Source of the DNA: Chloroflexus aurantiacus J-10-fl
Lineage (GTDB): Bacteria > Chloroflexota > Chloroflexia > Chloroflexales > Chloroflexaceae
DNA: 64,000 bases
Reading direction: 5' to 3'
NCBI RefSeq assembly: GCF_000018865.1
Contig: NC_010175.1
Coordinates: 4,278,001-4,342,000, forward strand
A program made the translations under genes and the position numbers. The notes beneath the pieces were generated by a model that had not been told where the DNA came from, made no database searches, and worked only from the letters and a program-made list of their open reading frames with translations. This document shows, in pieces, positions 4,178-37,504 of this stretch. Within the stretch, counting starts at the first letter, position 1. Every line of letters starts with the position of its first letter.

Positions 4178-5069
4178 ATCAGATAATCCGCCGCCACCTT
4201 TGTTCGACGAAGCCTTTCTGCGTCGGCTTGAACGACTGAGTCTGCAAGCGCAGCGAACGCTGCGCGGTACGCCAATTGTTGGTCGGTATCCCGGTCGGCA
4301 ACCGATGCCGGCAACCATTTTTAGCGATCATCGTCCCTATACGCCCGGTGATGATCCCAGGTATCTTGACTGGCATGTCTACGCTCGCCAGGAACATCTG
4401 CTGGTGCGTTTGGGTGAAACCGAACAGGATGTGGCGGTTAGTCTGATCCTTGATACCTCGCGTAGTATGGTGACCGGCGATCCGGAACGGTTGCGCCGGG
4501 CAATTCAGTTGACCGGTGCCATGGGCTATCTGGCATTGGCCCACGGTGATCGAGTGACCGTCTTGACCGGTGATCAACCACAGCCACTCTTTGGCCCGGC
4601 ACGTGGCAAAATGCGCGCGGTTGAACTCTTCAAGGCGCTGCGTGACCTGACACCGACCCGTCGCATCGATTTAGAGCAGGCAGCTCGCCAGATAGTGCAA
4701 CATCATCCCAGGGGCGGTCTGGTGTTGTTACTCTCCGACCTGCTCACCCCGATGCCGATTGAGCGGCTGAACCAGATTTTGCCTGCACCGCGCTGGCAGG
4801 TTATGGTGCTGCACCTGCTGAGTAACGCCGATCTGAACCCGAATCTGTACGGGCCGCTGGAGCTGGTTGATAGCGAAACCGGTGATCAGTTGGTTGTTGA
4901 TCTTGATGAGGCGACATTGGCGGCTTATCGTGCTGCGGTACAGCATTGGCGTACATCAATCGCTCAGCACTGCTCTGCCCGTGGTTTGCATTATGCGCCG
5001 GTATTGACCGATTGGGTGCTGGAACGGCAAGTGATCCCGTTTTTGCGCATCCGCCGCTTTCTGACCTGA
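4140..5069 (+). CDS. DUF58 domain protein
   Basis: The protein (about 309 residues) has the DUF58 hallmark YTPGDDPRYLDWHVYAR near residue 70, followed by a VWA-like strand with LILDTSRSM, which keeps the DxSxS MIDAS metal site. DUF58 proteins are encoded with MoxR ATPases and VWA membrane proteins and are thought to help MoxR-type chaperones mature target complexes; their chemistry is unknown. The start is ambiguous between ATG 4140 and ATG 4149; either overlaps the end of the upstream gene by 29-38 bases. No MoxR ATPase gene lies in this cluster, so it is either outside the window or elsewhere in the genome. Confidence 0.85.
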   Translation: MFAMWFATIFRRKSDNPPPPLFDEAFLRRLERLSLQAQRTLRGTPIVGRYPGRQPMPATIFSDHRPYTPGDDPRYLDWHVYARQEHLLVRLGETEQDVAVSLILDTSRSMVTGDPERLRRAIQLTGAMGYLALAHGDRVTVLTGDQPQPLFGPARGKMRAVELFKALRDLTPTRRIDLEQAARQIVQHHPRGGLVLLLSDLLTPMPIERLNQILPAPRWQVMVLHLLSNADLNPNLYGPLELVDSETGDQLVVDLDEATLAAYRAAVQHWRTSIAQHCSARGLHYAPVLTDWVLERQVIPFLRIRRFLT

Positions 5070-5218
5070 CGTCGGTTAGGCGCGTTTGCTGTTGTGCAAA
5101 TCCGGTATTGAGCATCGCCGGTCGTGATTCCGTTCAGGGCAGTTGCTCTCTGCGCGGATGTTCGTGATAACGACGTATCACATGTGCCAGGCTCTGAGTC
5201 TGTCAATGTAGGAGACCC

Positions 5219-9606: not shown

Positions 9607-9750
9607 TGCGGCTGAGACCACAGCACGGTAGCCCAACCTGAAGGCTACTGGTATCGGCTTGAGCCGCACCGATTCCTTCACCTCACAACAGGCGTATACT
9701 TTCAGGAAAGCGTCAGCAGATAAGGGAGCAACCTTCGTACCCACAACGAT

Positions 9751-10800
9751 ATGATACCTGAGATTGATCACATCATCACCACCGCGATTCACGAGCGTAT
9801 CTTTCCAGGCGCCATTGTCCTGGTGGCGCAGGACACCCACATCCTGCATGCGGCTGCTTATGGCACCACGATGTACGATGACCCCGGCACCATGCCGGTC
9901 ACGCTCGATACCATCTACGATCTGGCGTCGTTAACCAAAGTCTTCACCGCCACCGCCGCACTCCGCCTGCACGACGCCGGCATGCTACCACTCGACCAAC
10001 CCATCCAGCACTGGCTACCGGCACTGCATGCACCCGACATCACCGTTCGCCATCTCCTGAGTCACTCCAGTGGTCTGACCGTCCAACTGGCGCCCTTAGC
10101 CCGCGCCGGCGCCGCAACGATCAGAACAATGGTCTACACAGCCACTCCCCGCCATCCACCCGGTCGCATCGTTGAGTATGCCAACCTCAACACCCTGTTG
10201 TTGGGTGATGTCGTGACCGCGATCTACGGTGGTTCACTGGCCGACGCCCTGACCGAACTGGTCTGTGTACCGCTCGGCCTGCACAAGACGCGCTTCAACC
10301 CACCGACGGAGTGGCGGGCAACCATTGCCCCCACCGAATGGGACTGGGAATGGCGTGGTGGCCTTGTACACGGCGTGGTGCATGACGAAAGCACGTATGC
10401 GCTGGGCGGCGTTGCCGGTCATGCCGGCCTCTTCGGCCCGGCGGCTGAAGCATTGCGGCTGGTACAGCTCTTCATCCAGGAAGGAGCCTGGCAAGACCGC
10501 CAGCTCCTGCGGGCCGGCACAGCACTGGCTGCACTAACCCCACAACCGGCCTCCGACACCAGCCGATTGGTGAGTGGCCTGGGCTGGATGCTACACCGCC
10601 CATACATGGGGAGCGCCATCCACCACGGCTTCGGCCATAGTGGCTTCACCGGCCCCCTCCTGATCGGCATTCCCCAGCGGAGACTGGCAATCGTCCTGCT
10701 GTGCAACCGCACCTACCCCAAACGAACACCGCCGCCGTACCGTCACCATGCGATTGCTGCTATGGTTGTAGACGCAATCATCCAGGCGATAGATCGTTAG
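9751..10800 (+). CDS. serine hydrolase, class-C beta-lactamase family
   Basis: The 349-residue protein has the three elements of the penicillin-recognising serine fold: SLTK with the nucleophile at residue 60, the YAN motif near residue 145, and HSG in the FGHSGFTG segment near residue 300. No signal peptide is visible, so it is probably cytoplasmic, arguing against a true antibiotic-degrading beta-lactamase; relatives include esterases, D-aminopeptidases and peptidoglycan-related hydrolases. It follows the VWA operon by 144 bp. That gap can fold into a hairpin with GGTAGCC pairing to GGCTACT, so it may be a separate transcription unit. Confidence 0.85.
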   Translation: MIPEIDHIITTAIHERIFPGAIVLVAQDTHILHAAAYGTTMYDDPGTMPVTLDTIYDLASLTKVFTATAALRLHDAGMLPLDQPIQHWLPALHAPDITVRHLLSHSSGLTVQLAPLARAGAATIRTMVYTATPRHPPGRIVEYANLNTLLLGDVVTAIYGGSLADALTELVCVPLGLHKTRFNPPTEWRATIAPTEWDWEWRGGLVHGVVHDESTYALGGVAGHAGLFGPAAEALRLVQLFIQEGAWQDRQLLRAGTALAALTPQPASDTSRLVSGLGWMLHRPYMGSAIHHGFGHSGFTGPLLIGIPQRRLAIVLLCNRTYPKRTPPPYRHHAIAAMVVDAIIQAIDR

Positions 10801-10833
10801 CGCTCTTGCCAGCCAGATTGCCATAAGTACGGG

Positions 10834-10839
10834 TATAAT
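10834..10839 (+). promoter_or_regulatory. perfect -10 box before the small membrane peptide gene
   Basis: TATAAT lies 50 bp before the ATG at 10889. No -35 of the right spacing stands out; TTGCCA occurs at 10806 and 10818 but at 22 and 10 bp. Confidence 0.4.
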
Positions 10840-10888
10840 GATAGAGAGCGATAAAACCGTTTGATTCAACCTCTTCCAGGAGAGTGAT

Positions 10889-10990
10889 ATGAGTCGCAAA
10901 CGCTATCAGCAATGGTTTCGCATTCTGAGTGCCGTCATCATCGGCATTCTGGTTCTGGCATTAGTTGTAACGGCGATTGTGCCGTACTGA
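10889..10990 (+). CDS. 33-residue single-pass membrane peptide
   Basis: The small ORF encodes MSRKRYQQWFRILSAVII and then GILVLALVVTAIVPY. It has a basic, aromatic N-terminus and one transmembrane helix of about 22 residues ending in Pro-Tyr. Support for coding comes from an AGGAG ribosome site five bases before the ATG, a TATAAT box upstream, and close spacing (16 bp) to the DCC gene. The positive-inside rule predicts a cytoplasmic N-terminus. No family is recognised. Such peptides are often missed by annotation and commonly act as small partners of membrane complexes, but no partner can be named here. Confidence 0.6.
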   Translation: MSRKRYQQWFRILSAVIIGILVLALVVTAIVPY

Positions 10991-11006
10991 TCGATAGAAA
11001 ACACCT

Positions 11007-11387
11007 ATGCGCTACACAATGCTTTACGATGGCAACTGCCGGATATGTCGCAGCCAGGCCGCATTGATTGCCGGTTACGATGATCACAACCAGATCGAGC
11101 TACTCGACGCCAACAGCACCAGTGCACGGGAACGTTTTCCCCAAATTAGCCACGAAGAAGCGATGGGGCAATTGCATGTCGTCGGCCCAGACGGTACCAT
11201 CTACCGTGGTGCCGAGGCAGTACGCGAAATTCTCCTACAGCTACCGACACTGCGCGGTTTAGGTGAACTCTTGCGCCTGCCTGGTGCCCTGACACTGGCT
11301 CAGCCGGTGTACGAATTGATTGCCCGCAATCGCTATCTCTTCGGCGGTAGCACGACGTGCGATGATGATGCCTGTCGACGTCGCTAA
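11007..11387 (+). CDS. DCC-family thiol-disulfide oxidoreductase (DUF393)
   Basis: The 126-residue protein starts with the DCC-family signature YDGNCRICR, placing a CxxC at residues 11-14 in a thioredoxin-like first strand. The family (also called YuxK) is predicted to exchange dithiols; physiological substrates are poorly known. Length is typical. A further Cys pair in TTCDDDACRR at the C-terminus is unusual and could be a second redox or metal site. The start ATG 11007 lies 16 bp after the small membrane peptide gene, with which it may form an operon. Confidence 0.8.
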   Translation: MRYTMLYDGNCRICRSQAALIAGYDDHNQIELLDANSTSARERFPQISHEEAMGQLHVVGPDGTIYRGAEAVREILLQLPTLRGLGELLRLPGALTLAQPVYELIARNRYLFGGSTTCDDDACRRR

Positions 11388-11407
11388 TGCCGTATCCGGC
11401 TTGCCAG

Positions 11408-11616
11408 TAACCCAGGTTGCTACCTTTGTCACCACAGAGGATTAGGTATAACCTGAGTTGCTACCGTGAGGCGTGACGTAGCGCATCGATGGGAACTGGA
11501 TACTCCCCACATCGTTCATGCAGGTACGCCACACAGTGTTGCGCACAACGTCGTGCTGTTTATCCTGGCGGTCAAACTCCATGGCATGCCCATAGTACAG
11601 GCGGCAACTTGAGTTA
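11408..11616. repeat. MITE-like element, family 1, copy 2 (fills the 11388-11790 gap)
   Basis: The element has the same layout as the copy at 441-658: an outer end TAACCCAGGTTGCTACC (11408), a core beginning TAACCTGAGTTGCTACC (11449) and ending GGCGGCAACTTGAGTTA (11616). The core is again 168 bp. The rest of the gap, 11617-11790, shows no gene or clear signal. Confidence 0.8.
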
Positions 11617-11790
11617 TCAGTAGTAATCTGATCGATATGCGAGCCTTGGCGTCGAGAAGCTGAACAACGTTTTACATCCTGGCTACACAGGCAGCCAGTT
11701 CAGGACACCACATGAAATAGGGAAACTCCCGAACCGGCTGCGTATGTGACAAGCCCATTCGCCGCACACTATGCTGCACTCCCGATAACA

Positions 11791-12860
11791 CTATCCGTTG
11801 CCGTGCAATCGACGTAATGTTTCCTCAAGCTCGCGGAGACGAGCTTCGACTTCCGCCCGTGCCGCCGCTTCTGCCGCTCGTGCTTCGGCTTCACGGCGGG
11901 CCTGTGCTTCAGCGGCGGCGCGAGCCTCGGCTTCACGGCGGGCCTGTTCTTCAGCAGCGGCGCGTGCTGCCGCTTCTGCGGCACGCGCTTCGGCTTCATG
12001 GCGGGCCTGTTCTTCAGCAGCGGCGCGGGCCTCGGCTTCACGGCGGGCCTGTTCTTCAGCAGCGGCGCGAGCCTCGGCCTCACGGCGGGCTTGTTCTTCA
12101 GCCAGGCGTGCTCGCTCTTCCGCTAGCGCCCGGGCTGCCGCTTCCTGGCGGGCACGCCGCACCACCTCAGTGTAGTCGCCGATCTCCACCCCCTGCTCGT
12201 CGTAGCATACCACGTGGTCGCCCATAATTCCGACCCAGAGCCGGGCTATCGCCAGATACACCCGCCCATTCGCGTCGAGCCGCTGGCGTACATAGCGATC
12301 CCCGACCAATCGATAGTCCAGTAAGCGCAGCTGTCGTGGCTCAGAGCGGGTGGTGTCGACGATCACGTACTGCGCCACCCTTGCCCAGGCATAGTGCTCA
12401 ACCTTGGCCTCCAGATCATTCTGGCGGGTCTCCGGCGAGGTAATCTCAATGATGAGCGCCGGACGCTGGCCTTCATCCCGCACATCGAAAGTGCTCCAGT
12501 TCCGCCGTGCGGGGAGACCGGGAATGACCGTCACATCCGGGCTGTGCGGGCGGAGGTTGGGCACGTCCCAGGCGATACGCACATCGGTGAGCACAATGGC
12601 TATCCCCGACGGCTCCAGGCGCTCCCGCAACACACTGGTGAGATACATCCGGTCGGTTTCGTGACGGTCGCGCTATGCACGATGACGTCTCCCACCTCCG
12701 GATGGAGGACATCCTCGAGAGTGAGTGGCACCTGTTCGAGGTGATGGGGATCGTCGGGGGTGGGGCGGGGCACAAAGCGCCAGCCGTAGCGAAACGGGTC
12801 GTCGGCAGGGGCTGTACGTGGTGCGCGCGCACGAGTCAGGTTGGGCTTGAGGTGGGTCAT
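11791..12860 (-). pseudogene. Uma2-type nuclease-like protein with Ala/Arg/Glu coiled-coil tail, frameshifted
   Basis: The gene begins at ATG 12860 after a GGGAGGT site and encodes a Uma2 (DUF820) N-terminus with FRYGWRFVPRP and [15 protein letters not shown]. Near 12675 the frame is lost; the next frame resumes with [16 protein letters not shown] and runs through the rest of the domain (SPDVTVIPG, then [11 protein letters not shown], the PD-(D/E)XK-like core) to 11791. One missing base explains the shift. The last 130 residues are an Ala/Glu/Arg-rich coiled coil of about 14-residue units ([14 protein letters not shown]), encoded by imperfect 42-bp direct repeats. Uma2 proteins are abundant in cyanobacteria and Chloroflexota and their role is unknown. 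It is either a recent pseudogene or a sequencing error. Confidence 0.75.
11850..12140 (-). repeat. 42-bp imperfect tandem repeats in the Uma2 tail
   Basis: About six units encode [14 protein letters not shown] and variants. The strong repetition makes unit gain or loss by slippage likely and may explain the varied tail lengths of Uma2 homologues. Confidence 0.75.
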
Positions 12861-13986
12861 CGTGATACCTCCCTGATGATGTTGGTATCGGCGTGGAAGC
12901 GGCGTTGGAACAGTATTGTACCACACCGGATCGCCAGCGTGCCGGGTGATGCGTGTGGGAGAGAGACGGTCTGTTGATGGTCGGTGCGCAAAGGCAGCAG
13001 TGGCGGGCAGATGGAAGAGCGTACTGGATCATAATGCGCTCCTGAGCAGAAACGGTGTTCTCTATATAAACCGGTTCAGGAGCGCAAACGTTGCGCGGAA
13101 TATAGTGAGTAAATCATATCTTGAATGACATCATTCGGGTCGTCAGACCCATGCTGGCGCACTGCCGGCGTACTACCAGTGCGCTTATGGTGGTTTGTCA
13201 GCGGTGCACACGAACCGGTTCACGGGTTATCACGCTCAGGTACAGCGCCAGCGTGATGGGTGATGAGTGGGTAACGGTGGTGTTGTATCCACCAGTGACC
13301 TGCGACACGCCCCGATCCTATTTCATCTCTGGGGGTGGGAACTACCGGTGACAGATGGCTCCTGCTGTCGCGTGTTGGCTCAGGGGAGCGATATACCGTA
13401 ACTTCTATGTCCCCTTCCCGCCGTCAGGCCAGTCCTGCCGTCATGCGGGCTGAAGCCCTGCCTGACCGCGTGCAAGCCCCGTTAGGGCAAGTGCGATACC
13501 CCCTCCTCGCGCTACCCCACCAGTCCCGCCTATGCATTACCCACATGTCACACAGAAGCCGGTATGACCCCTCATAACACATCGTGCTGAACACGGCGCA
13601 TCGTTCGTCACGCACACCAGGCGTCAGGTGTTCCGCAGCCTCGATCCCGCGTGCAGCCAAACCCGCCGATCTGGTCGTGCGGGCTGAAGCCCTCCCTCAC
13701 GACGTGGAAGCCCCGTTGGGGTTATCCACACGTGCGTCTGGCACCACTCCTCGCCGTCAGGTCAGCCCCGGCGGGGCTTCTACGAATTGAGGCTGGGTTT
13801 TAACCCGCCGACTCGCCGGCCCTCATCCCCGGCCCCTCGCCCGCATGCGAGCTATGCAGTATTCGAGTTATGGGTAATGCATGGCAGTCCCGCACGGGGG
13901 TGCACGAAGCGAGAACAGGGTTCTACCCTATCGATTCTGATGACAAACGCTTGCAGAAACATTAGAGAAGCTGATCTTGGGGTCGG
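12861..13986. other. 1.1-kb intergenic region with GC-rich repeats
   Basis: No convincing gene was found. Two similar segments (about 13446-13490 and 13679-13724) contain CGGGCTGAAGCCCT followed by a GCAAGCCCCGTTAGG-like tract; the inverted GGGCT/AGCCC pairs could form small hairpins. Similar sequences occur near 20050 and 54165. Short ORFs here lack ribosome sites and family signatures. The region separates two minus-strand genes and is probably repeat debris. Confidence 0.5.
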
Positions 13987-20392: not shown

Positions 20393-21331
20393 CTAGGTGC
20401 TGATCAAGCGTTGACTACGCTCCAACCGCTCGATCCACGGGGCGAGAAATGGTTGCCAGACCGCCTGCCCATCAATCAGCATAGACAACCTTTGTGCTTC
20501 GGCTGACATCATTTCTTGCAAGGCAACGATTAATCCGTCTGCTTGCTCAAACTCACCGGCAGTCTCGAAGAGGGTGCGCATCATCGTGAAGCGATCCCCA
20601 ATTGGGATTGAAAATCCGAGCCGGCGGGCCAACTGTGAGCAATCGGCGCGGCTGAAGAAGATGCCGGCGCGTACCGGTGTAATGAGATGACGTATCAGCG
20701 TGTTGAGGTCATCTGTTTCTGGCGAGGCAGCGCTCGTGGCGAGCGGAATGTATGAGCGAGATGAGGACGGTACCGGTTGAAGACGCTCCAGCTCGCTCTC
20801 GATAAATTCTACCGCGAGGGTGGCCAGGGTTTGATAGAGTGGATGACCGGGAATGCGCTGCACAGCATGCGCCCAAACCGGCACCCAGACGGCGAGATGG
20901 TTGCCGAGAAAGGACGCTGCGTGTTGGTGTGCCCACTGCTGCAATCTACTGTCGCCATCGGCCAGAGCTGCTGCTTCAGTGGCGATCAGGCGGGCAAGAA
21001 AGAGGAATTCGATCCCCAAATGGTCGGGAGCACCAACAGTCTGCGGTGGCGTAAAGCCACAGGTAGCGTAGAAAGCCGCCACCTGATCGGCGGCTGCGGT
21101 GTTGAGCATGAGTTCTTCGTCGCGGTAAAGCGACTCGTAAGGGTAGACATTGCGTCCGAAGGTCTGCTCATACGCAACCGCCAGGCTCTCCGGTTGATCT
21201 GTCATCACCGTTGCCAGTTCAGGCAGTGCCACCGCCTCCGCCCAAAGCTGAGCGGAAGGCGGTGCGATAAGGAGACGGCCAATGACATCGGCCAGGGTCT
21301 GGCGGGCTACAAGGTCAGCGGTATCGTTCAC
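20393..21331 (-). CDS. TorD/DmsD-family molybdoenzyme chaperone
   Basis: The 312-residue helical protein carries the TorD-family marks YEQTFGRNVYPYESLYRDEE and DHLGIEFLFLARL. Such chaperones bind the apo-form of one DMSO-reductase-family catalytic subunit and assist molybdopterin insertion. It is the last gene of the operon; its start overlaps the stop of the catalytic subunit by four bases (21328-21331), which marks it as the dedicated chaperone. The extra 90 C-terminal residues beyond a usual TorD are of unknown role. Because the partner lacks a Tat signal, it probably serves cofactor loading rather than export proofreading. Confidence 0.83.
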   Translation of the reverse strand: MNDTADLVARQTLADVIGRLLIAPPSAQLWAEAVALPELATVMTDQPESLAVAYEQTFGRNVYPYESLYRDEELMLNTAAADQVAAFYATCGFTPPQTVGAPDHLGIEFLFLARLIATEAAALADGDSRLQQWAHQHAASFLGNHLAVWVPVWAHAVQRIPGHPLYQTLATLAVEFIESELERLQPVPSSSRSYIPLATSAASPETDDLNTLIRHLITPVRAGIFFSRADCSQLARRLGFSIPIGDRFTMMRTLFETAGEFEQADGLIVALQEMMSAEAQRLSMLIDGQAVWQPFLAPWIERLERSQRLIST

Positions 21332-24291
21332 GATTTTTTCTCCGGCAGGAAATACGCCTCACGGGCCGGGCGGAACGGTCGCAACAGCCAGTGTGGCCGA
21401 CGCATGCCGTTTGGTGACACCTTGCTTGCCGGTCGCGTCATCGCCAGCCATTCACGGTAGACTTCGTGTGCCCGTTTGGTATCGACATAAATGTCGCCAT
21501 AGCGGTCGTTCGGGCCGGCTGGTTCGAGGCGTACTTTCTGATGCCAGCAGTGCATGCCGCTGATTGGATCAGGGTGTACGGCAAAGGTCAGGTTCTGATG
21601 CACACCGGCATCTTCCCACCAGATGCGCGAGGTGTCGGGATCGTCGCTCTCGTAGGGGCGGATGCCGTGAAGCTGACGCATACGCCATTCACCCTGACCC
21701 TCTTGTTTGAGTTCGACCAGAGCAGTCGAGAGTCGACCGCCGCCATCTTCCTGGAGTCGCCATCGCCCCAGATGGTGCGAACAGGCGATGACACCAGGGC
21801 GAATGCCTTCAGTCACCCAAACCCGATCAACGAAGTAGCCGATCTCGGTCACGACTTTGATCAGGTCACCGGTACGCAAGCCGAGCCGTTCGGCATCGCT
21901 GGTGTGAATCCAGACCGGGTTCTTGTGGCTGATCTCGTATAGCCACTTGGCATTCCCGCTGCGGGTGTGAATCAGTGTAGGTAGTCGGAAGGTAGAGAGC
22001 AGTACCGCCTCATTCTTGCTCCGGTCAATCTTGCTGGGATGCACGTGGCTGTGAATGTACGTAGGAATAGCGTACTCCGGCCACCCCCAATCGCGTAAGG
22101 TAGTTGAGTAGAACTCAAGCCGGCGCGACGGGGTGGGGAAGCCGGTCACAATCGAACCGTCTTCCAGTTTGATACCAATTGGTCGGCCACGTTCGGGATC
22201 AGGCTCGAAGTAGGGCAATGGCGTAATATTCGACGATGGTGGTGCCGGTGTTTTGGTGTAGACGATACCGGTATTCGGATCAATCGTCGCGTCGCTCAGG
22301 TCAGCCGCACTGAGTGGTTTATCGAAGGTGGGTTGTACGCCCTTCCGCAGCTCGAATGCACCGTAGCGACGCATGTATTCCAGCGGGGTTAATCCCTCTT
22401 TCGCCGCGGCTTCGGGCAGACCCGGCACGTGGTTCTCGAACATCCAGCCGTAGAACTCATCAACAGTAATCTTCTGACCAGGTCGGTACGGGCTTTCAAA
22501 GGTCTTGCGAATACCCAGGCTACCATCGGGATCAATCCGCCACGACAACTCGATCCAGAACTCAACCTCTTCCCAGACTTCGCCGGGATTAGCGTCACGG
22601 GTATCGTTCACCGGCTTGCCCAGGCGGCGCATTGCTTCGCGCAGAACCGGCTGACGGAAGGCAATCCAGCAACCGGCGTGCGTCTCCTGGCTCATCACAT
22701 CGTGGCGCTCGGCGCCGACACCCATCGGCAAAATATAGTCGGCAAACCAGCCGGTCTCGCTCCACGTCGGCGAGAGATGGACGTGGAGACCGATCTTGCT
22801 CTCGTCGGTCAAGACCTCCAGCCAGCTCATGCCATCGGGGTTTGTCCAGAGCGGATTGTAGACACGGGTGAAATAGGTGTCAACCTTACCCCGTCCTTCT
22901 TTCAGGAAGTGCGGGAGCAAAATGCTCATTTCATAGAAATTGAGCGGATACTCCTGTGGCCAGGTCAGCTCATTCCAGACCTTCACGTGGGGTGCCATGT
23001 TCGGGTGACGCGGAATCCATTTGTCCCACACATTGGCCGATGTTCCACCTTCGACCCCAATCGATCCGGTCAGGACATTGAGGAACCAGAGACAACGAGC
23101 GACCATCCAGCCGCCGAGGTTGGCACTGGTTGCGCTGCGCCAGCTATGGGTGGCGAGTTTGCCTTCGCAACGGGCGATGATTTTGGCTACACGCTCGATC
23201 TGCTCAGCACTGACTCCACTCTCCTGGGCCGCAAACTCAAAGGTATACTGAGCGTAAAGCTCTTGCAACTTCATCTCGAAATGCTCAAAGCTAACCGGTA
23301 GATCGGGATGTTCGGCCCGCAGATAATCTGCCCAATTGACCCAGCGGCGCACAAAATCGCGATTGTACTGCCCGGTACGAATGAGATAGTTAGCAATCGC
23401 AAGCAGAATTGCCGTCTCGCTGCCCGGCCACGGCGAGAGCCACTCATCGGCCAGTGAGGCGGTGTTCGAGAGGCGGGTATCGAGCACGATGAGCTTTGCG
23501 CCGGCCATCTTACCTTCCATAATCCGCTGGGCGTGCGGGTTGAAATAGTGGCCGGTCTCAAGATGCGAGCTGATGAGGAGAATGACACGCGCATTCGCGT
23601 GATCGGGTGAAGGCCGGTCGAGTCCCATCCACATCGCCTGCCCACAGCGTGCACCTGACGAGCAGACGTTGGTGTGCGAGTTGTGACCATCGACGCCCCA
23701 TGCCGGCAATACCCACTCCATAAAGCCATCGTGACCGGGACGACCAACGTGGTAGATGATCTCGGTCTGGCGCTTCTCGATAATTGCTTTGCGGATACGA
23801 CCGGCAATATCGTCGAGCGCTTCATCCCACGAGACGCGCACCCATTTGCCTTCACCACGCTTGCCAGCACGCTTCAAAGGATAGAGAATCCGGTCGGGGT
23901 CATAGACCTGATTGAGCGTTGCCGGCCCTTTCGCACAGTTGCGACCGCGACTACCGGGGTGGAGCGGGTTGCCCTCGAACTTTTTGATCTTGAGGGTTTC
24001 GACATCAACGTAGGCCAGCAGTCCACAGGCACTCTCGCAATTGAAGCAGACCGTCGGTACCAGCGTGTAGCGGCGGGCAACCTTTTGCGGCCAGGCTTTG
24101 GGATCGTACTCCGTCCAGTCTTGCCAGCGTTCGACCGGTGGGTAGTCACGCAGTTCCTGGCTACTGGTTAGCGTTGCCGTGGGTGTAGTACTGGTGACAT
24201 ACGCCTGTACTGGTGGTGTGAGCGGCTCAACCCGCGAAGATGATCGTTGACCAAGTGTTCCAAGCAGGCGATGAAGGAGTGATGTCGCCAT
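21328..24291 (-). CDS. Mo-bisMGD oxidoreductase catalytic subunit (SoeA/PsrA-like)
   Basis: The start is ATG 24291, preceded by GAGAGG and 13 bp after the upstream stop; the longer open frame overlaps the upstream gene and lacks a site. The 987-residue product belongs to the DMSO-reductase superfamily. An N-terminal CFNCESAC and a later GRNCAKG hold a [4Fe-4S] cluster; the Mo-cofactor domains follow (NVCSSGARCG, RPSPDHANA, TWSETGWFADYILPM). No twin-arginine signal is present, so it is expected on the cytoplasmic side. That, with a ferredoxin and NrfD-type anchor, resembles cytoplasmic sulfite dehydrogenase (SoeABC), though polysulfide, thiosulfate or arsenic substrates cannot be excluded. Confidence 0.85.
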   Translation of the reverse strand: MATSLLHRLLGTLGQRSSSRVEPLTPPVQAYVTSTTPTATLTSSQELRDYPPVERWQDWTEYDPKAWPQKVARRYTLVPTVCFNCESACGLLAYVDVETLKIKKFEGNPLHPGSRGRNCAKGPATLNQVYDPDRILYPLKRAGKRGEGKWVRVSWDEALDDIAGRIRKAIIEKRQTEIIYHVGRPGHDGFMEWVLPAWGVDGHNSHTNVCSSGARCGQAMWMGLDRPSPDHANARVILLISSHLETGHYFNPHAQRIMEGKMAGAKLIVLDTRLSNTASLADEWLSPWPGSETAILLAIANYLIRTGQYNRDFVRRWVNWADYLRAEHPDLPVSFEHFEMKLQELYAQYTFEFAAQESGVSAEQIERVAKIIARCEGKLATHSWRSATSANLGGWMVARCLWFLNVLTGSIGVEGGTSANVWDKWIPRHPNMAPHVKVWNELTWPQEYPLNFYEMSILLPHFLKEGRGKVDTYFTRVYNPLWTNPDGMSWLEVLTDESKIGLHVHLSPTWSETGWFADYILPMGVGAERHDVMSQETHAGCWIAFRQPVLREAMRRLGKPVNDTRDANPGEVWEEVEFWIELSWRIDPDGSLGIRKTFESPYRPGQKITVDEFYGWMFENHVPGLPEAAAKEGLTPLEYMRRYGAFELRKGVQPTFDKPLSAADLSDATIDPNTGIVYTKTPAPPSSNITPLPYFEPDPERGRPIGIKLEDGSIVTGFPTPSRRLEFYSTTLRDWGWPEYAIPTYIHSHVHPSKIDRSKNEAVLLSTFRLPTLIHTRSGNAKWLYEISHKNPVWIHTSDAERLGLRTGDLIKVVTEIGYFVDRVWVTEGIRPGVIACSHHLGRWRLQEDGGGRLSTALVELKQEGQGEWRMRQLHGIRPYESDDPDTSRIWWEDAGVHQNLTFAVHPDPISGMHCWHQKVRLEPAGPNDRYGDIYVDTKRAHEVYREWLAMTRPASKVSPNGMRRPHWLLRPFRPAREAYFLPEKKS

Positions 24292-24304
24292 AATGATACC
24301 TCTC

Positions 24305-25984
24305 TTAACTGTTCGGCACGTGTTGCGGCGCCATGACGAAAGCGTATTCAAAGGCGTACAACCCGGCAATTGCGGCCAGTCCGGCTACTGCCAGGAGTGG
24401 CATCGCCAGGGTCGGAGCAATGAACGCCAGGATGATGCACAGCACCGGGAGAACGTGACCGAGAGCAATCGCTCCTTGCCAGAAGTGGTTGCGGTAGCGG
24501 CCGTGGCTAATATCGTGCGCGGCGCGGGCAGCAACTTCACTGGCATGAGGGATACCGAACTCACCAACCAGGAGCATAAAGAGATCGATCAGCAAACTAC
24601 CGGCAAAGAGCCAGCCGAGCAGGGTGAGAAATGCTGCCGGCATAGCCACAAACGGTGCGAGCAGCAAGAGCGTACCGGCACCAACCATCACAGCCTGCAC
24701 CAGGAGATGGGCCGGCAAGAGGGGACTTTGCCACAGGTCACGCCCCTCGGCCTGCGCGAAGAGGAACGCGGTGTAAATGGCTGCCAGCACGGCCAGCGGC
24801 ATCCCGATCCAGGCCAGGATTGGCCGCAAGCCTGAGACAGCGGCTTCTGGCCAGATATTCAAGGCAGCGCCGGCCTCAGCCAGGAACCACAGCCCGCCAA
24901 CCAGCGTAAAGGCAATCAGGATAAACGCCCCGCGTGTCAGCCAGCTCCGCCATTGTGGGCGGGTGAGAATGGTAAAGAACAGATGCGGCTTTTCCAGATC
25001 AAACACCAGCAGAGCGGTTGTAATACCAATGAAGAGCAGACTTACAAAGAGCGCAATTGCCAGCAGTGGTGCAGTCAGCGGCGCCAGTCCAAGACCAACA
25101 GCGGCGGCCACTGCGAGAAAGACACCACTCCCAATCCCTTTTGTCACCAGATATGCCGGTACCGGCCAGTGCCACGGAATCTTGTGTTGAGCGTTGTAGC
25201 CGGTTTGCACCATGTGACCGGCCACCCGGCCACCCAGCATCAGCGCGCTCTGACCACTTCCCAGCCCCTGTTCACGCGGCGGGCGAATCTTTGCTCCCGA
25301 AGCCGCAGTAAGCGGAATGACCTCACGGGCATGTTGTTTTCGTCCGTTCGTATGGTGGTGACCAACCAGTTGCTCGCTCACCACATCAGCCCACATAAAG
25401 GTAGAACTGGTCGTCGAGGCGGTTGGCGTCAATGTGGTTTGGTCAGCATCAATGTAAAACAGCTTGGGTGCGGTGCCCTGTTCAGGCTTGCGCACCGAAA
25501 CCGGCTCACGGGCAATTAATTGGCTGATCAGACTATTGGGATCATCGAGATCGCCAGAGATGATCGCCTGTTCGGGACAGACAATTTCACAAGCCGGTTT
25601 CAACCCCTGATCGATACGGTGCGCACAGAAGTGGCACTTCGCCGCATTGTGGCTCTCTGGATCAATGTAAATGGCGTCGTAAGGACAGGCCTGCAAACAG
25701 GCTTTGCAGCCGATGCACACCTTCGGATCAAACTCTACAATCCCGTCGGTGCGCTGATACATTGCTGTGACCGGACAAATGCGAACACAAGGTGGATTGG
25801 CGCAGTGGTTACAACGTGTCACCTGAAAATGGCGCCGGGTGGAGGGGAAGGTGCCGGTCTCTACATACTTCACCCACGTGCGGTAAACCCCAAGTGGAAC
25901 TTCATTCTCCGACTTGCAGGCAGTACTGCATGCGTGGCAACCGATGCACTTCCGCTGATCGATGAGGAAGCCGTAGTTTGTCAT
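24305..25984 (-). CDS. fused four-cluster ferredoxin and NrfD/PsrC membrane anchor
   Basis: The 559-residue protein joins two subunits that are normally separate. Residues 1-185 form a DmsB/PsrB-type ferredoxin with four Cys groups: CIGCHACSTAC, CNHCANPPCVRIC, CIGCKACLQAC and CHFCAHRI with later Cys, enough for four [4Fe-4S] clusters. A linker of about 95 residues leads to an NrfD/PsrC domain with about eight membrane helices starting at LVTKGIGSGVFLAV. It would carry electrons between the molybdenum subunit and the quinone pool. No stop or frameshift separates the parts. It is the first gene of the three-gene operon. A 29-bp palindrome lies 78 bp upstream. Confidence 0.9.
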   Translation of the reverse strand: MTNYGFLIDQRKCIGCHACSTACKSENEVPLGVYRTWVKYVETGTFPSTRRHFQVTRCNHCANPPCVRICPVTAMYQRTDGIVEFDPKVCIGCKACLQACPYDAIYIDPESHNAAKCHFCAHRIDQGLKPACEIVCPEQAIISGDLDDPNSLISQLIAREPVSVRKPEQGTAPKLFYIDADQTTLTPTASTTSSTFMWADVVSEQLVGHHHTNGRKQHAREVIPLTAASGAKIRPPREQGLGSGQSALMLGGRVAGHMVQTGYNAQHKIPWHWPVPAYLVTKGIGSGVFLAVAAAVGLGLAPLTAPLLAIALFVSLLFIGITTALLVFDLEKPHLFFTILTRPQWRSWLTRGAFILIAFTLVGGLWFLAEAGAALNIWPEAAVSGLRPILAWIGMPLAVLAAIYTAFLFAQAEGRDLWQSPLLPAHLLVQAVMVGAGTLLLLAPFVAMPAAFLTLLGWLFAGSLLIDLFMLLVGEFGIPHASEVAARAAHDISHGRYRNHFWQGAIALGHVLPVLCIILAFIAPTLAMPLLAVAGLAAIAGLYAFEYAFVMAPQHVPNS

Positions 25985-26105: not shown

Positions 26106-27237
26106 GATAGCTCTTTAATATGCCTTCCATCCTGCAAACGGATTGCGTTGTAATACCAGGAAAGAGACCTGCCTGGATTCGTGGCCACTTTGGGATTACT
26201 GCACGCTGCGAGCATGTGGTCAAGGGTACTGATATACGTTCGCATCTGGCGGCTGTTCAGGAATGTTGGGTTATCTGGTTGACAGATGGTGCGCGGAGAG
26301 GCATTGCTGTCACCCTGCCGGTCACAGGCACAACGCATAGTCTCGTTATCATCAGGCTTGTTGGTATCGGCGGGCGACACATGCGTCGTCCCTACCTGGG
26401 CTGGACTGGCTATTCTTCACGTCCGGTAATGCGCGTGTCGCGTGGTGTGCGGAATCCTCTTTTCCACTGAGTTTGATGCCGGGCGGATGTCGCAGCGGTC
26501 ACCGTTTAGATGTACTTCTCGTGTTCAAGCATTACCGGGTATGCCAGCGGCGAGGGGCTGGTGGGTTGTTGTCGGCGTCGTAGGTGCCACGCATGCGTCG
26601 CCCTACTGTCGCGCTGGTATCCAGCCGTGCATCGTTCAAGGGCAGCATCAGGGTGATAGCTGGCTGGCGTGTCATTGTTCTGCCGGATTTGACATAAACC
26701 GGTCGTCACCTGGATTCTCATCAGCTTCAATCATTCCAGGACAACAACATCCATGCTGTTCACAACCAATTGACCTTCTTGTCTGCAAGATTGATACGTT
26801 CGGTGCATACAATCTCAGCTCATTATGCATAAAATAGAATGCATAAAATAGAGTATCTTTACATGGCGTATTTTCACGAAGCGACACCCCCCATGTTCAA
26901 CGGGTTAACCGAATTCTTACCTTTTTCGCAACGCCTGCCTGCACCGGCTGGCGCGCTCTCGAAAACTGAAAGCCGTGTTACGTTGACCTGCCGCTGATAC
27001 CTGATTGAAGAAGGAAGCGGCTACGGTTGCGTTAGTGATCAGAAGAGACATATCTGGCATACATGTTGGCATGCCTGCCACAACAGTGAATGTCTGTAAA
27101 GAGGGAGCAGAGGCAATAATGACCGTTCCTGGTGTGTTGCCTCATTGCATAGAGTATGTCAGTGGGAAGTGACGTATTCGCAGAAAGGGCCAGCTATGGT
27201 ATATATTGCATCAGAAATAAAATTGTTGGGAGGCAAA
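26106..27237. other. intergenic region between molybdoenzyme operon and LysR gene
   Basis: No gene is supported in this 1.1 kb. It contains two copies of a palindromic GACGCATG-type repeat (about 26373-26397 and 26583-26608), a remnant of the GCGTGTCGCG repeat near 26430, and a perfect tandem 14-bp duplication (ATGCATAAAATAGA twice, 26825-26852) in an AT-rich stretch that could be a promoter or regulatory element. Confidence 0.5.
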
Positions 27238-28119
27238 GTGACACTTAATCTGCATTTACTACGCATTTACGTTGCCGTGCTTGAACAGGGCAGTTTCACG
27301 AAAGCAGCCGAAGTCCTCACAATGAGTCAATCGGCGGTATCGCGGGCAGTGCAAGAGCTTGAACGTCAACTTGGCACGACTCTGCTCGAACGGCGTGCGC
27401 GCGGTGTGGCCCCAACGATGGCCGGTACTATCCTGGGTGAGCATGCCCGACGCATCTTTACGCATGAGCGGCTGGCTATCGAGGCGTTGAACGAACTACG
27501 CGGTCTGCAACGAGGTCGGCTGGCAATTGGTGCAAGTAGTACGATTGGTATTTACCTGCTACCCCCACTCCTCGGTAACTATCATCGTCGGTATCCGGGC
27601 ATCGAGTTGTTCCTGGATATTGGCAATACCCAACAGATTATTGAACGCCTGTTATCCTATCAGATTGATGTCGCTTACGTGGAAGGGCCGGTAGCAGCGA
27701 ACGAAGACTTGCAGGTAGTGCCGTGGCGAAGTGACGAGATGGTTGTGATTGCCTCTCCCGATCATCCGCTTACCCGTCGGGTCACCCTGGATTGTTCTGA
27801 TCTCCAGGATGCCCCTTTCATTATGCGTGAACCTGGCTCAGGCACACGTAAGGTGATGGAACAGGCACTGGCAGCACATAACGTGACGGTACGTCCGGTG
27901 ATGGAATTGGGGAGTACCGAAGCCGTGAAGCAGGCAGTGAGTGCCGGATTAGGGTTGAGCATGGTTTCGCGCTTTACGATCCAATCTGAGCTGATTGCCG
28001 GTAAGCTGCGGGTACTCAATATTCCTGGTCTCAATATACAACGTCAGTTGAGCCGCGTCCGTCTGCACGACCGTCCTCAGAGTCTGGCCCTGGAAGCATG
28101 GTTTAAGAATCGTGGCTGA
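27238..28119 (+). CDS. LysR-family transcriptional regulator
   Basis: GTG 27238 is chosen as start because GGGAGG stands five bases before it and the LysR domain begins at once (LNLHLLRIYVAVLEQGSFTKAAEVL); ATG 27196 is an alternative. The 293-residue protein has an N-terminal winged helix with SQSAVSRAVQELERQLG and a C-terminal effector domain of the CysB/CbbR type (RGRLAIGASSTIGIYLLP, then EPGSGTRKVME). Such regulators respond to small metabolites of sulfur, nitrogen or carbon pathways. It is divergent from the molybdoenzyme operon but more than 1.2 kb away. Control of that operon is possible but unproven. Confidence 0.88.
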   Translation: MTLNLHLLRIYVAVLEQGSFTKAAEVLTMSQSAVSRAVQELERQLGTTLLERRARGVAPTMAGTILGEHARRIFTHERLAIEALNELRGLQRGRLAIGASSTIGIYLLPPLLGNYHRRYPGIELFLDIGNTQQIIERLLSYQIDVAYVEGPVAANEDLQVVPWRSDEMVVIASPDHPLTRRVTLDCSDLQDAPFIMREPGSGTRKVMEQALAAHNVTVRPVMELGSTEAVKQAVSAGLGLSMVSRFTIQSELIAGKLRVLNIPGLNIQRQLSRVRLHDRPQSLALEAWFKNRG

Positions 28120-31464: not shown

Positions 31465-32228
31465 TTACTGCGGCTGTATTGCCCCAGTGCCTCGGCGCTG
31501 AATATTCCGAATCTCTCCACCTTGTCGTCGACTACACGCAAGGCAGTGAGGATATAACCACTGGGGCGCGCCAGGTGGACTCAGCGCATTGGGTGGTTGA
31601 TGGTCAGGGATGAAGTTTCCATCGATCGTCCCTGGGTCTGTCGCCCCACACGTATGACAGCCAGTCATCCGCCCTATTTCATTTATGGCATCGCGCTCCT
31701 CGCGCGTAAAATCTCGTCCTGGTCCTCTCGCTGGTATCGAGTCTCCAGCATATGGCCCTGGAGTGAGGGTGGAGGGCCGTGTGCGACTACTTCCCGCCCC
31801 CTTGCTCCCCCCGATGATCCCAACCCGAAGCAAGTCATCGAGGGGCAAGCCGACCGGCAGCAGGTCATCAGGTTCGGCCGCTTCCAGCGCAGCGGTCAGG
31901 GCCAGGTTGACGGTCGCCGCGCGCTTCTCCTCAGCAGGAGCCTCCGGGTCGGCCAGCGTGCGGGTGGCTTGCACGGCATCCCACGCCGTCCAGCCATCGT
32001 CAATCGCCTTCAGCAGCGCCAGCCCGCCAATGAGCAGCACCGGCAGCAGCGGCAGATGCCCCGTCGGGTCGGTGGCGGGCAGCGGATTGTTCAGCGCATC
32101 GGCGGAGCGGTTCAGGTCCTGCGGATTGACCGGGCTGCTGCCGGCACTGCGCCACATCCCCTGCGCGGTCGCATCGCTCGGCCAGACGGTGAGCGGCGGG
32201 CTGCCGGGGATGATGGTGTCGGCAGGAT
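31465..32228 (-). pseudogene. orphan Rhs C-terminal end with Zn/HNH-like nuclease tip (module D)
   Basis: The reading frame carries the Rhs post-core linker (TVWPSDATAQGMWRSAGSS to GIIGGSKGAGSS), nearly identical to the main Rhs gene, then a distinct toxin tip. The tip has GCHTCG, FIPDHQPP and YPHCLACSRRQGGE: two CxxC zinc pairs around a DHQ core, typical of Rhs-associated HNH-like nucleases. Homology to the main gene stops abruptly at about 32228, with no start codon, signal or core, so the module is promoterless. The tip itself is uninterrupted and could be activated by recombination into the main gene. Confidence 0.75.
31797..32228 (-). repeat. Rhs linker block, near-identical to about 39669-40093
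   Basis: About 430 bp match the main Rhs gene at high identity and in the same orientation. Such a block can serve as a substrate for homologous recombination that swaps toxin tips. Confidence 0.8.
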
Positions 32229-32777: not shown

Positions 32778-33800
32778 CTATTGAATGCGTATGATTGCTT
32801 CAGGCGGGATAAAATCACGGATTAGGACTTCCTTGTCATGCTTAGCCCACTGGGATAGCCTTCCTTTGACACCTGGAATTCCGTTCGAGATATCGACGAT
32901 CTCAGAACGAACTTTCGTCAGGTCGATTTGCACAACGCCGTATCGGCCATATTTTTCGATGGCAATGCGTTTATCCTTTGTGGTAGAAATCCAGGGACTG
33001 GCTCGCAGTCCTGCGACGTGGCTTTTCGGATCTACATTGCGTAAACCCGGTGCTCTGGCAACGATACCTTTTGTTGGATCCTCGCCTTGAGCAAGTCCGC
33101 GATAGACTATGGATGCCTCGCGCGCAGACTCCGAAATCTGCCCCGCCCCCGCCTCCCCACCCCTTATCGCCGCCTGCGCCGCCCCCGCCGCCTCATCGGC
33201 GCGGGCCATAGCGTGCAGGGCACCCGCCGCGTCGTCGGCGTGGGCTGCGGCGCGGATCAGCATCCCGCCGCCCGCCACCATCGGCAGCGCCAGGCTGGCT
33301 ACATCTGCTGCCAGCGCCAGCCCGCTGGTCCACGTCAGGCCATTCTGCGAGATGTCGTAGAGGTCATAGGCGATGAAGGCGATATCAATCGCGCTCTCGA
33401 TCCAATGCCCCGTCGGGTCGGTATTCTTGACCGGATTGTTCAATCCGTAGCTATACCGGTTCAGGTCCTGCGGGTTGGCCGGCCCGCCGCCCTCCGCTGC
33501 CCACGCCGCCCGCGCGGTGGCATCGCCCGGCTAGGCCGTCAGCGCCCCCGCCCCGGCACCACGCTGTCGGCGCTGATGAACCGCCCCAGCCCCGGATCAT
33601 AGTAGCGGGCATGATACTCCAGCAGTCCCGTCCCGTCCAGCCGCTGGCCGGTATACTTCAGCGTGGTCTTCCCCACGCTGCCCGCGCGCACCTTCCCCCA
33701 TGGGTCGAATGCCTGCTGGCTGGCGAGCGCGCCGGCGCTGGTGGTCGTCAGGCTCACGCTGCCGAGGCCGGCCCTGAGCAGAGCGATGGGTGGTCGCTGT
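32778..33800 (-). pseudogene. orphan Rhs end with ADP-ribosyltransferase-like tip (module C)
   Basis: The upstream part (about 33800-33540) encodes Rhs core signature: FDPWGKVRAGS, YTGQRLDGTGLLEYHARYY and GRFISADSVVPGRG. Near 33540 the frame is lost by one missing base and a TGG codon appears as TAG at 33531-33533. The next frame encodes NNPVKNTDPTGHWIE, an Ala-rich linker (AAAHADDAAGALHAMARADE), then a tip with YRGLAQGEDP, SPWISTTKDKRIAIEKYG and KHDKEVLIRDFIPPEAI. Arg, S-T-T and a late Glu in this order suggest the R-S-E ADP-ribosyltransferase fold. The core is broken but the tip (32778-33443) is intact. Confidence 0.65.
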
Positions 33801-34102: not shown

Positions 34103-35347
34103 ACTACCGTACAGAAAATGTGTTCGAAACAGTGATACGTGCCACTTCTGGTATGCTTCTCCGTACGAACGACTTGTAGTAGTCAGGAGGAGCGCCATGA
34201 GCGACACGCATCGCCGCTATCGTGCCATAAAACAGGCCATCATGCAATTCTATCACCCGCGCCCGCAAGGCCATCGCGAACGCCATTTCAATACCTTGGT
34301 CGCCCTGATCTGCGGCTTGGCCGGTGGTCAGCACGCCCACCTCTCCACGATTGCTGACCATGCTCCTTCCAACCGTGCCACCCAGGCAAGTCTGATCAAA
34401 CGCTTTCGGCGCTGGCTTGAGCACGACGACCAAACGCTCCAAAGCTGGTTTTTGCCCGTCGCGCAAGAACTCCTGAGCACCCTGGCTGCTCAGCCGCTCC
34501 ACTTGGTGATGGATGGCAGTGTAGTCGGGCGTGGCTGTCTGGCCTTGATGCTGAGTGTGGTCTACCACGGACGCGCCTTGCCGCTGTGCTGGGTGGTTGT
34601 TGCGGGCAGCAAAGGTCTTTTCCCCTGAGGCCACTCACTGTGCATTGCTCTCTCAGGTCCAGCCGCTCATCCCGCCCGGCACTAGCGTCACCTTCTTGGG
34701 CGATGGTGAGTTTGACGGCATCGATCTGCAAGAGCAGCTGCGCCAGGCGCACTGGCACTACGTCTGCCGCACGGCCTCCAACATCTTGCTCTCGGCTGGC
34801 GGCGATGCCTTTCATGTTGCCGATCTGGGGCCAGCGCGCGGCGAGGTGCTGGCGCTCACTCCGGCCTGGATGACCAAGAAGCAGTATGGGCCGATCAGCA
34901 TCCCGGCCGTCTGGGAGCAGCAGTATGAGCAGCCGATCTATCTGGTCACCAACATGCTCGACCTGGATACTGCGCTCAAGTCATATCGCAAACGTGGGCA
35001 CATTGAAACGTTCTTCTCCGACCAGAAAAGCCGCGGCTTCCACATCCACAAAAGCCATCTCAGCGACCCAGCTCGCTTGAGCCGTTTGTTGATTGCCGCA
35101 TGCCTGGCGTATGTGTGGCTGGTGTACCTGGGCGTGTGCGCGCTGCGGGATGGCTGGATGCAACAGCTCCATCGAGTGCATCGGTGTGACCTGAGCCTGT
35201 TTCGGCTGGGAATGCGCTTGCTGGCGCGCTGTCTCAAAGAGTATATCCCAATCCCTGAGGGCTTGATAGTTCCAGCAATCTTGCCGGCTGCACGCATCCA
35301 GACACCGAACAAGAAGGCAGCCTAGCCCACATGTTCTGTACGGTAGT
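34103..35347 (+). mobile_element. IS4-family insertion sequence
   Basis: The 1245-bp element is bounded by inverted repeats: ACTACCGTACAGAAAATGTG on the left and the reverse complement of ACTACCGTACAGAACATGTG on the right. It contains one transposase gene in two frames. No clear target duplication flanks it. It is the only plus-strand unit in the Rhs island and splits module C from module B. Confidence 0.85.
34197..35325 (+). pseudogene. IS4-family transposase, two frames
   Basis: ATG 34197 follows AGGAGGAGCGCC. The first frame runs to TGA near 34628 and contains the first catalytic Asp (LVMDGSVVGRG). The second frame continues directly with PEATHCALLSQ, the second Asp (FLGDGEFDG) and the IS4 Y-R-E-K signature (YRKRGHIETFFSDQK), ending at 35325. 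Removing one base, or a +1 shift at the CCC-TGA codon pair, would join the two frames into about 375 residues with all DDE residues. It is either inactivated by a one-base insertion or expressed by frameshifting. Confidence 0.8.
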
Positions 35348-36362: not shown

Positions 36363-36690
36363 ACGATGCTCCTTGTTCAAACTTCCTACTGCGATTGCAG
36401 GATGGACATTGAGCCCTCAATTTTGTGACGTCATTGTATTCATCTAGCACCTGCTTACGTGTCCAACCGAACATTCTTGCAACTCTATCTCTCCAAGGTG
36501 GGGTGTGGTCCAGATCTGGTTTCGTCATTGTTCGTCCGCAAGTCGGACAGATCATTTCACCTTCCTCATTTCGCGTAGCTTTGGATTCAACTGCTTCACG
36601 TACTCCCTTTCTGAAGCCACTTGGCCGCTTTGTGACATCGTTGGCATTCTTGTGCAGTTGCCCGGCTTGCGGTACAGCCCGCTGCAACTA

Positions 36691-36697
36691 CCCCCCC
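36691..36697. repeat. homopolymer run of seven at the linker-tip junction of module B
   Basis: Seven C on the plus strand (G on the coding strand) sit exactly where the linker and toxin frames part. It is a candidate slippage site, or a scar of decay. Confidence 0.5.
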
Positions 36698-36699
36698 AC

Positions 36700-36960
36700 C
36701 CCGCGCCGCCGCCTGCGCCGCCCCCGCCGCCTCATCGGCGTGGGCTGCGGCGCGGATCAGTGCCCCTCCGCCGCCAGGAACGACGGGCAGCACGGTGGAT
36801 GCGGTGTCGGCAGCGAGCGCGGCCCAATTCCAGGGGTCGCTGGGATGTTGCCAGACGGCAGCGGCGCTCAGGACCAGATTGGCAAGGTCCCACGCCGTCT
36901 CAACCCAATGCCCCGTCGGGTCGGTGTATGTCAGTGGATGGTTCAGCGCATCGGCGGAGC
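36700..36960 (-). repeat. Rhs linker block shared with about 38397-38640
   Basis: About 250 bp encoding WNWAALAADTASTVLPVV and the Ala-rich AAAHADEAAGAAQAAAR are nearly identical in modules A and B, in the same orientation. They differ from the main gene's linker, showing at least two linker lineages in the archive. Confidence 0.75.
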
Positions 36961-37504
36961 GGTTCAGGTCCTGCGGGTTGACCGGGCCGCTGCCGGCGCT
37001 GCGCCCCATCCCCTGCGCCGTTGCATCGCTCGGCCAGACGGTGAGCGGCCCCGCGCCGACGACGCTGCTGTCCGGCGTAATGAACTGCCCGCTAGCCGGA
37101 TCATCGTACCGGGCATGATACTCCAGCAACCCCCTGGCATCCAGGTGCTGTCCGGTGTCGGTGAACGCAGGTGAACGCAGTCTGACCGATACCCCCGCTG
37201 CGCACCGCGCCTCAGGAGGATGGTCTGGGACGTGCCTCCGTCGTTTCCGTTGGCGCCGTGGGTGTCTGCTCCCACCCCAGTTTTGCTCATCAGATTGCCC
37301 GGCGCGTCGTAGGGAGATATCTCCGCCCTGGGTGGCGTTTCGTCGTTGAGCGTGAACGTAGCTCGCGTGGGTAAGCATTGCCTGTATCGCCAGGGCACTG
37401 CTCCCACTCTCGCCTCGGACGTGGGTGCAGCGGCGACCGCCCTAGGCGTGGCGCACGTGCGCCCAGGCGCACGCTCCACGTCCCGGCGGCTCGTGCGCTA
37501 CCCG

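Follow-up and report, generated by a model that had tools for sequence, protein, structure and literature searches.

A probable inward-facing sulfite:quinone oxidoreductase with a fused ferredoxin–NrfD subunit, encoded in Chloroflexus aurantiacus and related to PsrABC-like complexes

Operon and subunits

The window analysed here, a stretch of 64,000 nucleotides from Chloroflexus aurantiacus J-10-fl (NC_010175.1, positions 4,278,001 to 4,342,000), carries three consecutive minus-strand genes in the order BC, A, and D, of which A encodes a molybdoenzyme and BC its presumed membrane partner (Table 1). The ATG of A at 24291 lies 13 bases past the BC stop and the start codon of D overlaps the stop of A, so that the genes look like one transcription unit. 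A was found in all eight Chloroflexus genomes searched, with 92–96% identity in the seven others, and full-length matches in Chloroflexota mostly exceed 60% identity; the operon is therefore not a product of chance. One internal stop was reported within the A match in several Chloroflexota rows, and open reading frames (ORFs) in such genomes span nearly all of A (e.g., loci L064, L065, and L073).

Table 1. Features of the BC-A-D region, in window coordinates (K/R, lysine and arginine).
Feature	Position	Strand	Evidence
BC: ferredoxin (four [4Fe-4S]) joined to NrfD-type membrane anchor, 559 aa	24305..25984	-	ORF, domain search, structure model
BC ferredoxin domain, residues 1-182, PsrB-like, signal peptide not seen	25439..25984	-	
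BC NrfD domain, residues 266-554, eight helices predicted, charge bias N-in (K/R: 9 N-terminal side, 1 opposite side)	24323..25189	-	
A: molybdopterin catalytic subunit, 987 aa, without Tat signal	21328..24291	-	ORF, domains, alignment, model
A [4Fe-4S] ligands C82, C85, C89, C119	23935..24048	-	alignment
A Cys210, presumed Mo ligand, invariant in 29-row family alignment	23662..23664	-	alignment
D: NarJ/TorD-type maturation chaperone, 312 aa, start overlaps A stop	20393..21331	-	PF02613, E=6e-19
Divergent LysR-type regulator, 1.16 kb upstream of BC	27145..28119	+	sequence comparison

A preliminary description of this locus had proposed a four-cluster ferredoxin fused to an eight-helix NrfD domain, and this is borne out. 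Sixteen cysteines in four [4Fe-4S] motifs stand N-terminal to the NrfD domain (PF03916, E=3e-24), and simple hydropathy of the window BC gives eight helices. The 16 ligand cysteines are conserved in 80–82 of 82 aligned fused proteins (79 distinct). The halves of an AlphaFold2 model of BC (mean predicted local distance difference test score, pLDDT, 75) match PsrB, at 49% identity, and ActC/PsrC.

In A, a domain search recognised molybdopterin, Fe4S4, and dinucleotide-binding domains. The coordinating residues are present, and the four iron-sulfur cysteines and Cys210 are invariant across the 29 family rows; the PsrA cysteine aligned with Cys210 we take to be the Mo ligand. Among solved structures, PsrA and ArrA are closest to A in sequence, and in a fold search with the A model (mean pLDDT 82) ArrA ranked first while PsrA was also matched. 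Against the curated PhsA model NF012032, A scores 203 bits, under the 694-bit cut-off. No signal peptide was seen in the sequences of A or BC, and the proposed lack of a twin-arginine translocation (Tat) signal on A stands. An upstream TTG start that might hide such a signal was rejected, because the extended frame overlaps BC and lacks a hydrophobic segment after 'SWRRN'.

An NrfD-type anchor and a ferredoxin also occur in alternative complex III (ActB/ActC) of Chloroflexus, in which, as among the PDB matches, the Mo-like part is joined to the ferredoxin, NrfD is separate, and haem c proteins are partners. The window operon, however, has only BC, A, and D, and its A is separate from the ferredoxin and keeps the cofactor ligands. 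NrfD-type anchors are also paired with cofactor-less partners, according to part of one report (PMC6303296), and A might likewise be a catalytically dead scaffold in the style of ActB or QrcB, serving electron transfer only. The invariant cysteines, the dinucleotide-binding domain, and a chaperone gene that is co-encoded in part of the family make this extremely improbable.

Distribution of the family

The expectation that such a complex would be notable in this lineage did not hold, as the family (at least 55% identity to A) is present in at least 64 of 400 Chloroflexota genomes, in other phyla, and in haloarchaea. The raw tally was 66, but genomes G067 and G293 match at only 35%, which leaves 64; because no more than two candidates were scored in each genome, the true number may be higher. 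Among records with names, where 80 loci were kept and most genomes are metagenome-assembled, there are at least 56 family loci with 50–70% identity to A. At the least, these comprise 11 in Bacteroidota, 8 each in Acidobacteriota and Chloroflexota, 6 in Planctomycetota, 5 in Actinomycetota, 4 in Chlorobiota, 3 in Gemmatimonadota, 2 each in Thermomicrobiota and Myxococcota, 1 each in Nitrospinota and Calditrichota, one in an unplaced bacterium, and four on plasmid records (Thermomicrobium roseum and three haloarchaea). The family thus spans at least 11 bacterial phyla and the haloarchaea.

Removal of three duplicates (L170, L187, and L195, which repeat L065, L062, and L058) from 90 loci left 87 distinct ones. 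BC is a single intact ORF with both halves in 78 of these (81 of 90 with duplicates); three of the remaining nine have a C piece only, and six have neither B nor C in the stretch examined. Separate B and C ORFs were seen at none of the 87, but they do occur in relatives whose A is 32–35% identical (L074, L075, and L076) and in L087. The search confirmed no viral contig carrying BC, and no description of the fused complex in Chloroflexus was found in the literature search, which covered its sources in part.

Membrane orientation

Helix positions were mapped from the window BC; plain hydropathy assigned spurious helices to the ferredoxin part in several proteins. K/R residues are commoner on the N-terminal side of the anchor in 82/82 fused rows, or 79/79 distinct proteins (means 12.4 versus 1.0), whereas the separate anchors of the nearest relatives have the opposite, N-out bias in 29/30 cases (means 2.9 versus 9.5; L145 and L146, in which the anchor was not found, are left out of this count). 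The N-in exception among them is L076, whose A lacks a recognised Tat signal. By the positive-inside rule, the N-in bias would place the ferredoxin half of BC, and therefore A, on the cytoplasmic side. Together with the absence of a Tat signal, this supports the cytoplasmic facing put forward in the preliminary description. SoeC is likewise N-in by charge bias in 3/3 sequences examined, and an inverted orientation of SoeC is expected in passages of a review (PMC8076601).

The L076 locus (3989-7684), a Chloroflexota B-C-A set of separate genes in which no Tat signal was recognised and the anchor is N-in, may encode a further inward-facing complex.

Phylogeny and comparison with SoeABC

The kinship with SoeA that had been suggested from the sequence was contradicted by two trees. 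A quick tree of 52 rows unites the 18 rows of the family in one clade (Shimodaira–Hasegawa-like approximate likelihood ratio test, SH-aLRT, 100), which is nested in a supported group that also contains Azoarcus-type and Psr-like rows. A 27-row careful tree gives 100/100 for the family with five Tat-bearing relatives and 97/96 for the family with the Azoarcus type. SoeA falls apart from the family in both trees, and forcing the two together is 38 log units worse (approximately unbiased test, p-AU 9.3e-5). The family stem is long (1.15–1.45), as is that of SoeA. SoeA rows were assigned by features in the translations, namely no Tat signal, a DmsC-type anchor, and neighbours resembling Sat and AprB (L226), AprB (L233), or DsrE (L228), and not via a characterised sequence; the TtrA and ArrA rows score under curated cut-offs, so that their labels are approximate. 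The crude Tat rule gave false positives at the start of the FeS domain in L083 and L154 and missed L087, where the motif is plain by eye. Judged from these trees, the nearest kin of the family is the group of Tat-bearing PsrABC-like complexes, and not SoeA.

PsrABC/PhsABC-like complexes, including the type of Azoarcus sp. KH32C (L087), thus provide the closest Mo subunits, and PsrB the 49% identity noted above. They differ from the family in that A bears a Tat signal in the rows examined, B and C are separate, and the anchor is nearly always N-out. The L087 locus itself (plasmid of Azoarcus sp. KH32C, 8272-13432) and its relatives L124–L150 encode a Tat-bearing B-C-A-D set that shares the long C-terminal extension of A; the L087 complex adjoins arsenic resistance genes and a set of binding-protein, kinase, and sigma-54 regulator genes.

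SoeABC of Allochromatium vinosum and Aquifex aeolicus resembles the family in lacking a Tat signal, in its N-in anchor, in its sulfur neighbours, and in the reaction that we propose below. A and BC could accordingly be read as a true SoeABC with fused B and C, belonging inside the SoeA clade, the more so as the subunits are of similar size (987 versus 958–1000 aa ORFs) and DsrE2 and TusA adjoin both kinds of locus. According to passages of one review, all purple and green sulfur bacteria have SoeABC genes (PMC8232776), so that family genes may carry the SoeABC name in print. Nevertheless, identity to SoeA is 24–28% over part of its length only, the clades are separate, the subunits SoeB and SoeC are separate, and the family anchor is NrfD while the SoeC used here was found as DmsC (PF04976). 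We therefore regard membership of SoeABC as very unlikely.

SoeABC was also sought in Chloroflexota through PF04976, which has matches in 14 of 400 genomes, and 11 regions were examined. The operons in L113, L114, L115, and L117 were rejected as Tat-bearing and of DmsA type, and those in L121 and L122 because their Tat-less Mo subunits belong to another clade; no clear Soe-type operon was seen in the other five regions. In both L121 (2572-6968) and L122 (2617-6718), the ferredoxin gene is separate from that of the Tat-less Mo subunit, which shares a clade with L235 and L238; these loci perhaps represent another cytoplasmic complex.

Sulfur-gene neighbourhoods

Genes for persulfide dioxygenase (PDO), TusA, DsrE2, TauE, and sHdr-type proteins were queried and counted within the fetched stretch around each locus. 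They occur near 34 of the 87 distinct family loci (16/34 from the Chloroflexota genome set and 18/53 others) as against 0/28 Azoarcus-type loci (Fisher p = 2e-5), and near 26/79 when the eight loci that were the source of queries are taken out (Fisher p = 2e-4). DmsC-type control loci have sulfur matches in 5/25 cases (L225, L227, L228, L230, and L231), all of the SoeABC kind and with DsrE2 and TusA; four of them have a SoeA ORF, and L231 has a SoeB-like ORF at a contig end.

Individual neighbourhoods are consistent with sulfite being made or handled in the cytoplasm. At L070 the order is ArsR-rhodanese, a PDO-type protein of the MBL-rhodanese kind, TusA, DsrE2, BC, A, and D. L193 combines a PDO-type protein with BC and A and further encodes SulP (546 bits, above its cut-off) as well as a type III SQR-like protein, which scores 231 bits against a cut-off of 525. 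On haloarchaeal plasmids the set comprises a PDO-type protein, TauE, BC, A, and MobA, together with a permease that is weakly CysP-like (75 bits, cut-off 400). In Chlorobium sp. N1, BC and A are followed by TauE, with a CobB/DsrN-like gene and DsrC 3–5 kb further. Lipoate genes of the sHdr kind adjoin the operon in several Chloroflexota, though below curated cut-offs; the LipS2-like, LbpA/GcvH-like, lipoate ligase, SQR-like, CysP-like, and PDO/Blh labels are all under such cut-offs. The family is present in 7/15 LipS2-positive Chloroflexota genomes, compared with the 64/400 base rate (p = 0.004). In a post-hoc subset with lower-scoring LipS2 it is present in 7/9, and LipS2 and the family share a contig in three genomes. 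In C. aurantiacus itself, a PDO-like gene lies at 5210163-5211548, its product 54% identical to the PDO-like protein of L049, and Caur_3894 is named as its SQR in part of one report (PMC3150298).

Proposed function and origin

What the neighbourhoods share is that sulfite is produced in the cytoplasm, or that sulfite or sulfate is exported, next to a molybdoenzyme that faces inward and is linked to quinone. A sulfite:quinone oxidoreductase accounts for this best. We therefore propose that A and BC probably form a membrane-bound enzyme of this type on the cytoplasmic face, with substrate and direction suggested by gene neighbourhoods; the sulfite:quinone role suggested in the preliminary description is thereby supported as an interpretation. 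Sulfite would be made inside the cell by PDO, sHdr, or reverse Dsr, depending on the organism, and the Mo centre of A would oxidise it to sulfate. From the [4Fe-4S] cluster of A, electrons may then travel along the four ferredoxin clusters of BC and reach a quinone in its NrfD half, close to the inner face. It is possible that fusion to the anchor keeps the signal-peptide-less ferredoxin at the inner face, and that D aids cofactor loading. The quinone site and the assembly of the complex are inferred, as is the order of the evolutionary steps given below.

Several points weigh against this proposal. The topology is read from charge bias, no sulfur gene was found beside the operon within the window, and the queried sulfur genes are absent from the examined stretch at 53 of the 87 distinct family loci. 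The query genes were chosen from family loci, and the Azoarcus-type control comes from other phyla. PDO-like genes are also present in Chloroflexaceae genomes without A (e.g., G016, G018, G021, G022, G024, and G026), and of the three PF00174 genes in C. aurantiacus one may encode another sulfite oxidase. Finally, the sulfur neighbours do not by themselves fix the direction of the reaction.

On this last point, A and BC might work in the cytoplasm as a quinol-dependent reductase whose substrate is sulfite, polysulfide, thiosulfate, or tetrathionate, that is, a Psr, Phs, or Ttr complex turned inward, as their PsrABC/PhsA-like relatives and the existence of sulfur neighbours would allow. The clearest neighbours, however, make sulfite, oxidise sulfide, or export (PDO-type, SQR-like, SulP, TauE, and sHdr-type), and an inward-facing reductase that oxidises quinol would presumably save less energy. 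In addition, PDO requires O2, according to passages of a survey of Bohai Sea sediments (PMC12345210). On balance, we consider a reductase unlikely. It is less likely still that the complex acts on another oxyanion in the cytoplasm, such as arsenite or arsenate, selenite, or nitrite. ArrA ranks first in the fold search and the Azoarcus KH32C relative adjoins arsenic genes, but sulfur genes recur near family loci and no arsenic gene is named in three annotated family regions, the unannotated regions having been searched for sulfur genes only.

The ancestor of the family was probably an outward-facing, Tat-exported PsrABC-like complex with separate B and C, which lost its Tat signal, fused B to C, and inverted its anchor by flipping the eight helices. 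We suggest, tentatively, that inward-facing sulfite:quinone oxidoreductases thereby arose a second time, independently. The inverted complex may have spread through the phyla and haloarchaea listed above and may provide the final, still unassigned reaction between sulfide and sulfate where PDO, sHdr, or Dsr make sulfite without SoeABC or Apr.

The family is very probably the same as PSRLC3 of green sulfur bacteria, although PSRLC3 was matched by gene number, host group, and context, and not by a labelled sequence. PSRLC3 is called an alternative sulfite-oxidising system in part of one report (PMC6338057) and is encoded by two genes (PMC5473276), which resembles the two structural genes A and fused BC here. 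No statement was found in the literature examined that one of the two PSRLC3 genes is a fused BC. Chlorobium sp. N1 carries the family near DsrC, as adjacent BC and A genes, its A being 61% identical to the window A. AprA over the cut-off was found in 0/4 Chlorobiota genomes with the family (two have weak matches, E about 1e-6), and PSRLC3 is a trait of green sulfur bacteria without AprA. The family differs from PSRLC3 in extending far beyond Chlorobiota. Given the claim that SoeABC is universal in green sulfur bacteria, the two systems may be lumped in print.

Surveys of sulfite oxidation rely on SoeABC, SorA, SUOX, and Apr as markers, and a family outside these could explain certain gaps. 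In the Bohai Sea sediments, for example, passages of the survey state that SoeABC was not found, that the step was given to Sat-AprAB, and that Chloroflexota raised PDO expression (PMC12345210). With this family, Chloroflexus, Bacteroidota, Acidobacteriota, and haloarchaea would possess a pathway to sulfate. The family would also make NrfD anchors in opposite orientations comparable, which is useful for the question of energy conservation by these subunits.

Regulators and other features of the window

LysR genes resembling the divergent one in the window adjoin the operon in several relatives, and we infer from this position that the window LysR may have a role at the operon. Among solved structures it is closest to CbbR, followed by a LysR protein and then YeiE; its score of 242 against the YeiE model is below the cut-off of 480. 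YeiE binds sulfite, according to part of one report (PMC12880088), but because of that low score the LysR protein as a sulfite sensor stays a lead. In Thermomicrobium roseum, a CsoR-family regulator (PF02583; L083 8084-8362) lies directly upstream of BC. We presume that this regulator could be of the persulfide-sensing CstR kind.

Elsewhere in the window, a minus-strand gene at 39359-45634 encodes a 2091-aa RHS-repeat protein with a CBM60 domain. Three shorter minus-strand ORFs (31465-32157, 32778-33443, and 36596-37378) repeat the end piece of the RHS core ('DPTGH') with differing tails and no Pfam match, and look like orphan RHS tips. A plus-strand DDE transposase gene (PF01609) lies within this region at 34555-35325.

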